The notes under the pieces are model-generated. The model was not told the origin of the DNA, did not search any database, and worked only from the letters and a program-made list of their open reading frames with translations. A stretch of DNA of 39,429 nt from assembly GCF_003004785.1 (NCBI RefSeq), contig NZ_PVZS01000038.1, positions 243-39,671 of the forward strand. The letters are read 5' to 3'. Position 1 is the first letter of the stretch. Each line of letters starts with the position of its first letter. This document shows positions 16,131 to 18,110 of this stretch, one piece after another. This stretch comes from Alsobacter soli. Lineage in GTDB: Bacteria > Pseudomonadota > Alphaproteobacteria > Rhizobiales > Beijerinckiaceae. A program made the translations under genes and the position numbers.

Positions 16131-16872
16131 CCTTGCGAGGAGCGTAGCGACGAAGCAATCCAAGAAGGGTTGCCGCCTCTCTCCCCGTCGAGGCTAAGGG
16201 CCTCTGGATTGCTTCGCTTCGCTCGCAATGGCGGAGAGGGACGTCCGTCCTTGCGAGGAGCGTAGCGACGAAGCAATCCAGGAGGGGTTGCCGCCTCTCT
16301 CCCCGTCGAGGCTAAGGGCCTCTGGATTGCTTCGCTTCGCTCGCAATGGCGGAGAGGGACGTCCGTCCTTGCGAGGAGCGTAGCGACGAAGCAATCCAGG
16401 AGGGGTTGCCGCCTCTCTCCCCGTCGAGGCTAAGGGCCTCTGGATTGCTTCGCTTCGCTCGCAATGGCGGAGAGGGACGTCCGTCCTTGCGAGGAGCGTA
16501 GCGACGAAGCAATCCAGGAGGGGTTGCCGCCTCTCTCCCCGTCGAGGCTAAGGGCCTCTGGATTGCTTCGCTTCGCTCGCAATGGCGGAGAGGGACGTCC
16601 GTCCTTGCGAGGAGCGTAGCGACGAAGCAATCCAGGAGGGGTTGCCGCCTCTCTCCCCGTCGAGGCTAAGGGCCTCTGGATTGCTTCGCTTCGCTCGCAA
16701 TGGCGGAGAGGGACGTCCGTCCTTGCGAGGAGCGTAGCGACGAAGCAATCCAGGAGGGGTTGCCGCCTCTCTCCCCGTCGAGGCTAAGGGCCTCTGGATT
16801 GCTCCGCTGCGCTCGCAATGACGGAGAGGGACGTCCGTCCTTGCGAGGAGCGCAGCGACGAAGCAATCCAGG
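16131..16872. repeat. Tandem array of 118-bp inverted-repeat units (array 1)
   Basis: Units begin with CCTTGCGAGGAGCG at 16131, 16249, 16367, 16485, 16603, 16721 and 16839, a constant period of 118 bp, giving six full units and a partial seventh. Each unit has a left arm CTTGCGAGGAGCG...GAAGCAATCCAG and a right arm CTGGATTGCTTCGC...CTCGCAATGGCGG around a centre with TTGCCGCCTCTCTCCCCG. Units 2-5 look identical. Unit 1 differs in its centre, and unit 6 differs in its right arm (CTCCGCTGCGCTCGCAATGACGG). The array fills the space after tatC; no gene is supported here, and open frames through it are repeat translations. Confidence 0.95.
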
Positions 16873-16897
16873 AGGCTGGGCCTCGCGCCGCCTGAGT

Positions 16898-17185
16898 TCA
16901 GGCCAGATCGGGATAAAGGTTCCGCCAATTCGGGTTGAAGCCTTCGATCAGGCGCAGTTTGTCCGTGCGTGATCCTCCCTTGATCTGCTTTTCACGGAAG
17001 ATCGCGTCCGGCATGGTTGGGAGGCGCTCGTACCAAACGAGAAGCTTGCAGCCGTATCGAAGCGTGAAACCGGGAAGAAGGCCTTCCCGGTGCTGGTGCA
17101 CTCGCATGGAGAGATTGGACGTCACGCCGGTATACAGCGTGCCATTGCGTTTGTTGGCCATGATGTAGACGGCGGGCTCTCGCAT
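16898..17185 (-). CDS. Small GIY-YIG nuclease-domain protein
   Basis: Encodes 95 aa, a stand-alone GIY-YIG domain of the UvrC/YhbQ-like superfamily. It begins with VYIMANKRNGTLYTGVT, the GIY...YIG equivalents with Y7 and Y18. R28 and the HQHREG segment follow, then the catalytic-type glutamate E65 in FREKQIKG and a C-terminal asparagine in GFNPNW. All expected active-site positions are filled. The ATG at 17183-17185 starts at the domain boundary; the open frame continues upstream only through repeat sequence. It lies between two repeat arrays and is bracketed by a left repeat arm (16839-16872) and a right repeat arm (17247-17278). Its biological role is unknown. Confidence 0.85.
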   Translation of the reverse strand: MREPAVYIMANKRNGTLYTGVTSNLSMRVHQHREGLLPGFTLRYGCKLLVWYERLPTMPDAIFREKQIKGGSRTDKLRLIEGFNPNWRNLYPDLA

Positions 17186-17246
17186 GCTTGACAAGGGTGG
17201 CCTGTTTTCGGCTGGTCGGAAACGAACCTGAGGTTGCGCCCAGACG

Positions 17247-18110
17247 CCTGGATTGTTTCCCTGCGCTCGCAATGACGGAGAGGCACGTCCGTCCTTGCGA
17301 GGAGCGTAGCGACGAAGCAATCCAGAGGGCTGGGCGCGTGCCTCTTCGTCGGGACGGCCCGCACCCCTGGTTTGCTTCGCTTCGCTCGCGATGACGGAGA
17401 GGGACGTCCGTCCTTGCGAGGAGCGCAGCGACGAAGCAATCCAGGAGGGCTCGGCGCGTTCCTCTCCGTCGGGACGGCCCGCGCCCCTGGATTGCTTCGC
17501 TTCGCTCGCGATGACGGAGAGGCACGTCCGTCCTTGCGAGGAGCGCAGCGACGAAGCAATCCAGAGGGCTGGGCGCGTGCCTCTTCGTCGGGACGGCCCG
17601 CACCCCTGGTTTGCTTCGCTTCGCTCGCGATGACGGAGAGGGACGTCCGTCCTTGCGAGGAGCGCAGCGACGAAGCAATCCAGGAGGGCTCGGCGCGTTC
17701 CTCTCCGTCGGGACGGCCCGCGCCCCTGGATTGCTTCGCTTCGCTCGCGATGACGGAGAGGCACGTCCGTCCTTGCGAGGAGCGCAGCGACGAAGCAATC
17801 CAGAGGGCTGGGCGCGTGCCTCTTCGTCGGGACGGCCCGCGCCCCTGGTTTGCTTCGCTGCGCTCGCAATGACGGAGAGGGACGTCCGTCCTTGCGAGGA
17901 GCGCAGCGACGAAGCAATCCAGAGGGCTCGGCGCGTGCCTCTCCGTCGGGACGGCCCGCGCCCCTGGATTGCTTCGCTGCGCTCGCGATGACGGAGAGGG
18001 ACGTCCGTCCTTGCGAGGAGCGCAGCGAAGCAATCCAGGAGGGCTCGGCGCGTGCCTCTCCGTCGGGACGGCCCGCGCCCCTGGATTGCTTCGCTGCGCT
18101 CGCAATGACG
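17247..18110. repeat. Second array of ~119-120 bp inverted-repeat units (array 2)
   Basis: It starts with a lone right arm (17247-17278). Units then begin with CCTTGCGAGGAGCG at 17293, 17412, 17532, 17651, 17771, 17890 and 18009, with spacing alternating 119 and 120 bp. The outer arms are the same family as array 1, but the centre differs (TCGGGACGGCCCGC). Two unit types alternate: one with CAGAGGGCTGGGCGCGTGCC and CACCCCTGGTTTGC, one with CAGGAGGGCTCGGCGCGTTCC and GCCCCTGGATTGC. Unit 17293-17531 is nearly repeated at 17532-17770. The last unit lacks three bases in its left arm. No gene is supported in the array. Confidence 0.95.

Follow-up and report, generated by a model that had tools for sequence, protein, structure and literature searches.

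The locus between tatC and serS

We analysed a stretch of 39,429 nucleotides from Alsobacter soli (contig NZ_PVZS01000038.1; hereafter the window, meaning the whole stretch at its full length), in which a small gene for a GIY-YIG nuclease lies inside a tandem array of inverted repeats between tatC and serS. The repeats belong by their form with the repetitive extragenic palindromes (REPs), and this study is concerned with the relationship between these REPs and the nuclease. The genome carrying the window is called G000, other G numbers are genomes of relatives, and L numbers are loci. The features of the locus are as follows.

15341-16123, plus strand: tatC, the left neighbour of the insertion locus, taken from the list of open reading frames (ORFs); a TatC-like C-terminus is also found in the congeners' loci
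16128-16830, no strand: six tandem REP dimers of 118 bp, mostly near-identical, from repeat finding (family D1) and the arm list
16836-16870, plus strand: left REP of the gene-bearing unit, with CGTC tag, long arm and a CCA tail facing the gene, from the arm positions
16898-17185, minus strand: GIY-YIG nuclease gene, 95 amino acids from the ATG at 17185, from Pfam PF01541, the translation, an AlphaFold2 model and Foldseek
17249-17277, minus strand: right REP of the gene-bearing unit, with the CGTC tag outward (GACG on the plus strand), short arm and a CCA tail facing the gene, from the arm positions
17290-18110, no strand: seven tandem REP dimers of 117-120 bp with a spacer unlike that of the left half, from repeat finding (families D2 and D3) and the arm list
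18218-19738, plus strand: serS, the right neighbour, from its translation; used to locate the orthologous site in relatives

Positions 16128-18110 hold 28 half-units, or 14 units, in which a long arm on the plus strand and a short arm on the minus strand follow one another in strict alternation. The units are spaced at 117-120 bp throughout, except for the seventh, whose spacer is replaced by the nuclease gene and which has 6 units to its left and 7 to its right. The core of its long arm (16841-16869) matches the pattern exactly, and that of its short arm (17250-17272) has two mismatches. The initial annotation had described the gene as framed by the two arms of one repeat unit with ordinary units on either side, which is confirmed. 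The distances it gave, 25 and about 60 bases, are close to those found here (27 bases from the left arm to the stop codon and 63 from the start codon to the right arm).

The 5.19-Mb genome contains 217 matches to the long arm with at most three mismatches, versus 0 for the reversed control pattern. Chance placement was rejected on these counts, the arm alternation, and the control windows and REP density described below. One additional long-arm match, one base off, lies far from the array on the minus strand at 35984-36012 of the window. The spacers of the two array halves (16128-16830 and 17290-18110) differ, and much of the right half has a two-unit period. Hence, the halves were probably amplified separately.

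Identity of the repeats

The repeats of the window agree with the CGTC-tagged class of REPs described by Di Nocera et al. (2013; PMC3733652; this and the other PMC papers are cited from excerpts of their text), with which they share the CGTC tag, the CCA tail, the occurrence as dimers, the many copies, a mainly alphaproteobacterial distribution and, in part, the AT start of the stem. This class includes dRS3 of Neisseria and RPE-4/RPE-6 of Rickettsia (PMC3733652). According to the same excerpts, CGTC-tagged REPs "apparently lack a dedicated transposase" and no gene for a REP-associated tyrosine transposase (RAYT) was found flanked by them; here, in contrast, a GIY-YIG gene is a frequent partner.

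The arms in the window start with CGTC, and G000 contains 143 exact copies of CGTCATTGCGAG. The AT start of the stem is present in the short arms and in many genome copies (ATTGC/GCAAT); the long arms of the window array read CTTGC. The CCA tail is present as ATCCAG at both inner ends. Under our strict finder, whose permitted loop length went beyond this range, many REPs at homologue loci agree with a stem of 8-9 bp and a loop of 4-5 nt. In the ATTGC type found in the window, the perfect outer stem is 5 bp long, and only the relaxed finder picks this type up. This short outer stem, and a long arm beginning with CGTCC rather than CGTCA, distinguish the window repeats from the usual CGTC-tagged REP.

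Inspection of the first 30 of the 217 long-arm matches showed that 17 are strict dimers of opposed arms, as a rule with the CGTC tags outward and with spacers of 17-47 bp. Several of the remaining 13 have a degenerate second arm when read by eye. The spacers of gene-free dimers are variable in sequence, and since they differ so widely, the proposition that all such dimers are internal deletions of one gene-bearing element is not supported.

The nuclease

The gene is present in a single copy in its genome (search at E 0.001). The window protein as translated (P0001) has 20 extra codons upstream of the ATG at 17185. It matches PF01541 with an E-value of 1.5e-11 and a score of 44.9 bits versus a cut-off of 22.6, and the active-site residues Y27, Y38, G40, R48, H52, E85 and N104 show no variation across 36 chosen sequences (in a separate set of 23, Y27 is nearly invariant). 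The domain match above the cut-off and the invariant Y, R, H, E and N place the protein in the GIY-YIG superfamily, and the earlier statement that all expected active-site residues are present is borne out at these seven positions. We take their catalytic roles to be those of the corresponding residues of I-TevI and UvrC.

The AlphaFold2 model has a mean predicted local distance difference test (pLDDT) score of 88. Its best Foldseek match in the PDB is the UPF0213 protein BH0048 (E 9e-4, template modelling score 0.49-0.58), followed by Slx1 and the N-domain of UvrC with E-values above 0.01. The small GIY-YIG proteins of the UPF0213/YhbQ type and Slx1 share the domain with the window nuclease, and UPF0213 proteins (1zg2, 1ywl) are also of its size class. 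A relationship of the gene to RAYTs or to IS200 was considered and rejected, as the domain is PF01541 and G000 has no match to PF01797. No match to the nuclease that would suggest a phage origin was found in 50,697 phage records.

Flanking of homologues by REPs

Two sets of homologue loci were compared. The named set consists of 80 loci, the best 80 of 588 confirmed, and is biased towards the window protein. The relatives' set consists of 82 of the 89 homologue places in 99 relatives, the 7 weakest being left out, and the two sets overlap by at least two loci (L089 = L040 and L139 = L171). REPs were called with a strict finder (8-bp stem, one mismatch) and with a relaxed one modelled on the description excerpted from PMC3733652, and the counts refer to loci with full flanks.

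With the relaxed finder, 46 of the 74 named loci and 34 of the 76 from relatives have REPs on both sides of the gene. Another 20 and 17 have them on one side, and 8 and 25 on neither, respectively. Control windows from the same loci have REPs on both sides in 28 of 11,755 cases (named set) and 0 of 497 (relatives). For UvrC genes, represented by the 30 best-scoring loci of the 99-genome set and not matched genome by genome, the result is 0/30 on both sides and 1/30 on one. The strict finder gives 30/74 and 27/76 on both sides, with 3/11,755 and 0/497 in the controls and 0/30 for UvrC, and the first version of the finder had given 28/73 versus 3/12,173 controls. Many, though not all, of the loci without a called REP (8/74 and 25/76) contain palindromes with altered tags or tails when read by eye, and they were nevertheless scored as misses. 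A comparison of the two flanks free of any motif also supports the flanking: 52 of 74 genes exceeded the 99th percentile of the controls in the inverted orientation, with 41 of 74 above it in the direct one as well and no gene above the single highest inverted control.

The REPs are concentrated at the gene. Their density is 6.87 per kb at 0-150 bp, 0.21 per kb at 350-700 bp and 0.14 per kb beyond 3 kb, i.e. about 50 times higher next to the gene than beyond 3 kb, and 71 of the 80 named loci have a REP within 150 bp. Flanking by REPs is thus common in this subfamily of nucleases; the initial annotation had named homologues mostly unlinked to the repeats as an outcome that would speak against it. 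Six out-group small GIY-YIG genes in REP-rich relatives, assigned to the YhbQ/UPF0213 type by eye, lack two-sided REPs (0/6) and have one call, at more than 260 bp, in 2/6. Flanking as a property of any GIY-YIG gene was rejected on these genes and on UvrC.

The same annotation had proposed to check whether related small GIY-YIG genes are flanked by these arms in the same orientation. Two-sided flanking is common, and the orientation is not fixed: the gene may lie either way relative to the long and short arms (L001 versus L033), and the nearest REP pair is inverted in 64 of 80 two-sided loci (CGTC outward in 44 and towards the gene in 20) and direct in the other 16.

Correspondence between REP type and nuclease

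The stem 5-mers of the upstream and downstream REPs agree in 63 of 85 loci, whereas shuffling gives a mean of 15.6 and a maximum of 26. The 20 relatives' genomes with two or more copies of the nuclease gave 51 cases for comparison. In 37 of them, the REP of a gene came nearer to that of its closest protein relative from another genome than the REPs of its paralogues did (Wilcoxon p 3e-6), and 12 of the 15 genes whose nearest relative scores above 340, a threshold set post hoc, agree with this.

A tree was built for 161 proteins from 98 columns, with many unresolved forks for which the label shuffling makes no correction. On this tree, the distinction between ATTGC and other REPs requires 5 changes, compared with a minimum of 22 in 200 shuffles, and eight REP types require 34 changes, compared with a shuffled minimum of 55. 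The ATTGC-flanked proteins cluster in a single region of it (43 rows with a support of 82). Since this region contains members of the Alpha-, Beta- and Gammaproteobacteria as well as one Chlorobi and two Bacteroidetes records, the REP type is tied to the protein more closely than to the host. At the level of sequence, these comparisons show that nuclease and REP form cognate pairs, both within genomes and, on the tree, across phyla.

The last two long helices are joined by a loop in which position 91 is G in all 29 of the ATTGC-flanked proteins, and 89 of the 97 others have W there. The loop formed by residues 90-95 is a candidate for the part that reads the REP, with the G/W pattern being confounded by shared ancestry. 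The pairing also allowed a prediction for G015, whose gene is flanked by CGTCATCGCGAG: as predicted, this genome contains 40 copies of CGTCATCGCGAG and 0 of CGTCATTGCGAG. Its congener G055, in which the gene is absent at E 1e-10, contains 1 and 0 copies, respectively.

Gene-bearing and gene-free sites

The gene occupies non-orthologous positions in the two congeners G000 and G002, and each position is gene-free in the other. In G000 it lies between tatC and serS, within the array, and in G002 this gap holds a single gene-free REP dimer. In G002 the gene lies downstream of ppdK, where a gene-bearing dimer and one gene-free dimer are found between ppdK and a small ORF, and at the orthologous place in G000 REP and gene are both missing. 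Both are also missing from the tatC-serS gap of G001 and G003, and CGTCATTGCGAG occurs nowhere in these two genomes (G003 is 83% complete).

A similar picture was obtained for plasmids. In the fnrL-fixJ gap of Sphingobium plasmids, 7 records have a full-length match including the gene. Four of these were aligned and have the order REP-gene-REP, one with a frameshifted gene. Among 4 gene-free records, two have a single symmetric palindrome, the ends of which fall in 8-bp repeats common to both REPs, and two have neither REP nor gene. Two Shinella plasmids with REPs and gene were likewise aligned to two counterparts without both. Gene-free counterparts, about which the initial annotation had asked as empty sites, exist at ppdK in G000, at tatC-serS in G002, at fnrL-fixJ in Sphingobium and in the Shinella plasmids. 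The REP-gene unit therefore moves, or is gained and lost, more readily than its neighbours do, and insertion and loss would account for this alike.

Several observations were made along the way. In the Sphingobium plasmids TomTYG64 and TomTYG74 (L248 and L249), CGTC is present at both ends of the palindrome where the sister plasmids have REP-gene-REP; this palindrome may be an excision footprint or a target. In the more distant relative G011, the tatC-serS gap (L264) contains a dimer of REPs that belong to a different family (CGTCATTCCGGGG...GGAATCCAG together with its inverse). SerS of the window contains about 70-80 residues (about 225-305, encoded around 18893-19130) that most relatives' SerS matches skip. 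SerS of the congeners G001 and G002 aligns on both sides of this stretch, most of which is missing from them. The stretch looks AT-richer than its surroundings and has no evident REP inside.

Proposed role of the nuclease

Taken together, the most likely explanation, to which we assign a probability of roughly 0.6, is that the product of the gene is a GIY-YIG nuclease associated with REPs, which serves CGTC-tagged REPs as their dedicated partner in a RAYT-like role but as an enzyme is unrelated to RAYTs. From the matching of REP type to nuclease we infer that the enzyme recognises the type of REP that flanks its own gene, probably folded as a hairpin or cruciform, and from the conserved active site and the family that it cuts this REP, presumably near the base of the stem. 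Host repair of the break would then copy or relocate the dimer, whether its spacer holds the gene or not, so that cutting would drive the spread of the REPs. Gene-bearing dimers would be the autonomous copies, the many gene-free dimers the non-autonomous ones, and tandem arrays such as that of the window local by-products.

The initial annotation had likened the arrangement to an autonomous element with short non-autonomous copies, after the manner of RAYTs and REPs. The common flanking, the cognate REP type and the gene-free counterpart sites agree with that comparison. Its picture of the short units requires modification, as these are dimers with variable spacers of 17-47 bp and may have arisen otherwise than by internal deletion from a single gene-bearing element.

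Observations that weigh against the proposed role

A number of results are at odds with a dedicated partnership and have to be set against it. GIY-YIG nucleases are not known to join DNA, so that integration at new places would need host repair. The within-genome comparison goes the opposite way in 14 of the 51 cases, and CGTCATCGCGAG is not confined to G015, with 68 copies in G000 and 30 in G027. In 16 of the 80 two-sided loci the nearest pair of REPs is direct. At the reciprocal sites, ppdK and tatC-serS in G002 and G000, the intergenic flanks have diverged so far that neither insertion ends nor target duplications could be made out. The REP dimer between ccoP and fixG occupies the same orthologous place in four Sphingobium plasmids and is therefore old and not a fresh insertion, and no clear fresh REP insertion was found in 50-kb pieces of four Sphingobium plasmids.

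A further point concerns REP-rich genomes, defined as those with 10 or more copies of CGTCATTGCGAG. There are 30 of them, and 21 do not have an ATTGC-flanked gene. In 8 of the 21 (G004, G009, G018, G025, G027, G031, G039 and G057, with 11 to 97 copies of CGTCATTGCGAG; G009 is 78% complete) no nuclease of the family was found at E 1e-3, and hence REPs persist, or are spread, without it. Even without a gene of the P0001 clade, 20 of 49 genomes of the family have ten or more copies, compared with 9 of 10 with such a gene (p 0.006). At 24 copies the figures are 13/49 versus 9/10 (p 0.0003); this threshold and the grouping by clade were both set once the data were known. Not included in the grouping are G045 and G021, with 60%-identical genes that branch elsewhere in the tree, and G046 is assigned solely by its fragment of 71% identity.

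Such genomes may have lost the enzyme, or another enzyme may act in them. One of the 21, G051 (109 copies of CGTCATTGCGAG), retains a remnant of the C-terminus which, judged by eye, is similar to the ATTGC clade, and loss of the same kind is noted for RAYTs (PMC3733652). Truncated nuclease remnants were seen in three REP-bearing genomes (L239 in G051, L229 in G050 and L235 in G040). As for other enzymes, matches to Y1 transposases (PF01797) were found in 5 of 17 genomes tested (G029, G010, G009, G018 and G027), and the fact that G029 and G010 also carry the nuclease counts against our proposal. The other 12, including G000, G002, G004, G031 and G039, have no PF01797 match, so a Y1 transposase is not the answer for these five and the seven others. 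The absence of a Y1 match in the nuclease carriers G000, G002, G007, G012, G037, G032 and G015 speaks for the proposed role.

Alternative explanations

The main rival, which we nevertheless consider unlikely, is that the nuclease behaves as a homing-type enzyme: it would cut gene-free dimers and have its gene copied into their spacer by recombination through the REP arms, with the REPs multiplying by other means. GIY-YIG homing endonucleases such as I-TevI and the free-standing Seg enzymes are well known, and they resemble the present case in their catalytic domain and in a gene that sits inside what may be its own site. The gene does lie in the spacer of a unit within an array of gene-free units, G002 has a gene-free dimer at tatC-serS, and the two Sphingobium plasmids with one symmetric palindrome in place of REP-gene-REP have their breakpoints inside the 8-bp repeats. 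The differences are that there is no intron, that 95 residues leave no separate DNA-binding domain and that the site is a multi-copy palindrome. Furthermore, homing alone does not explain why REP type matches the nuclease lineage, and the ppdK site of G000 is wholly without REPs, implying that REPs and gene were gained or lost together there.

More doubtful still is a housekeeping function, in which an Slx1-like structure-specific nuclease would clear REP hairpins or cruciforms at replication forks and be kept beside its substrate without spreading it. REP hairpins can stall replication (PMC3733652), and the solved structures nearest to the predicted model include, with weak scores, Slx1 and UvrC besides UPF0213. 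However, a general hairpin nuclease would need no sequence-matched REP at its own gene, the gene differs in position between congeners, and the 8 REP-rich genomes do without it.

A passive association, with REPs gathering around a dispensable gene or the gene hitch-hiking in REP-rich regions, appears highly improbable. Both are intergenic and patchily distributed, as it would predict, but control windows (28/11,755) and UvrC genes (0/30) are so rarely flanked on both sides, other small GIY-YIG genes in REP-rich genomes have at most the two distant one-sided calls, and paralogues within a genome tend to have different, lineage-matched REPs. Least probable of all is that a RAYT or IS200-type transposase moves the REPs in trans and the nuclease is incidental, a possibility left open by Di Nocera et al. 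and compatible with the five genomes with Y1 matches, but weakened by the twelve without, G000 and G002 among them, and by the absence of CGTC-flanked RAYT genes in the excerpted survey (PMC3733652).

Relation to known systems and significance

A REP-associated GIY-YIG nuclease would parallel the RAYT REPtron (TnpA-REP with GTAG-tagged REPs) in having few gene copies per genome, adjacent REPs, cognate families and many gene-free dimers. A further trait of that system, an enzyme gene flanked by its cognate REPs, is found here as well. The enzymes and tags differ: the RAYT is a tyrosine transposase of the HUH (Y1) type acting with a GTAG tag, and the window system pairs a GIY-YIG nuclease with a CGTC tag. 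Small GIY-YIG proteins of the UPF0213/YhbQ type differ in their turn, as the six out-group genes lack two-sided REPs.

Among the matches listed in the open PMC literature (preprints and subscription journals being outside this scope), no link of GIY-YIG nucleases to REPs was found. The sole open-PMC paper with both terms, PMC9465073, has GIY-YIG and repetitive extragenic palindrome in unrelated places of its excerpted text. In the portions covered, the main text of a 2025 survey of REPs (PMC12306157) is without the words nuclease or transposase, and a survey of HUH enzymes (PMC6006769) has CGTC in its reference list only. The biochemistry of TnpA-REP (PMC8266576, in excerpt) offers a model for assays.

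Extending the REP-associated role of the nuclease to the whole class leads to a wider proposal, which we rate at slightly below even odds. CGTC-tagged REPs, which make up one of the two major super-families of REPs and have representatives in several phyla, would be non-autonomous copies of a class of mobile element run by a minimal GIY-YIG nuclease without a transposase. Each nuclease lineage would read its own REP stem, likely through the 90-95 loop, and spread would proceed by cut-and-repair, which is nearer to gene drive than to transposition.

In summary, the comparisons point to an enzyme not linked to REPs before as the partner of a REP family that is widespread in bacteria. The excerpted 2013 survey named no enzyme for CGTC-tagged REPs of the dRS3 and RPE-4/RPE-6 types (PMC3733652). 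A cognate nuclease would make the origin, copy number and spread of these REPs directly testable, and it would represent a second, independent solution to the relationship between RAYTs and REPs. The pairing also hints at what a group of small GIY-YIG proteins may do. As REP type and protein can be predicted from one another to a fair degree, it may furthermore supply ready pairs for studying how GIY-YIG domains read DNA.

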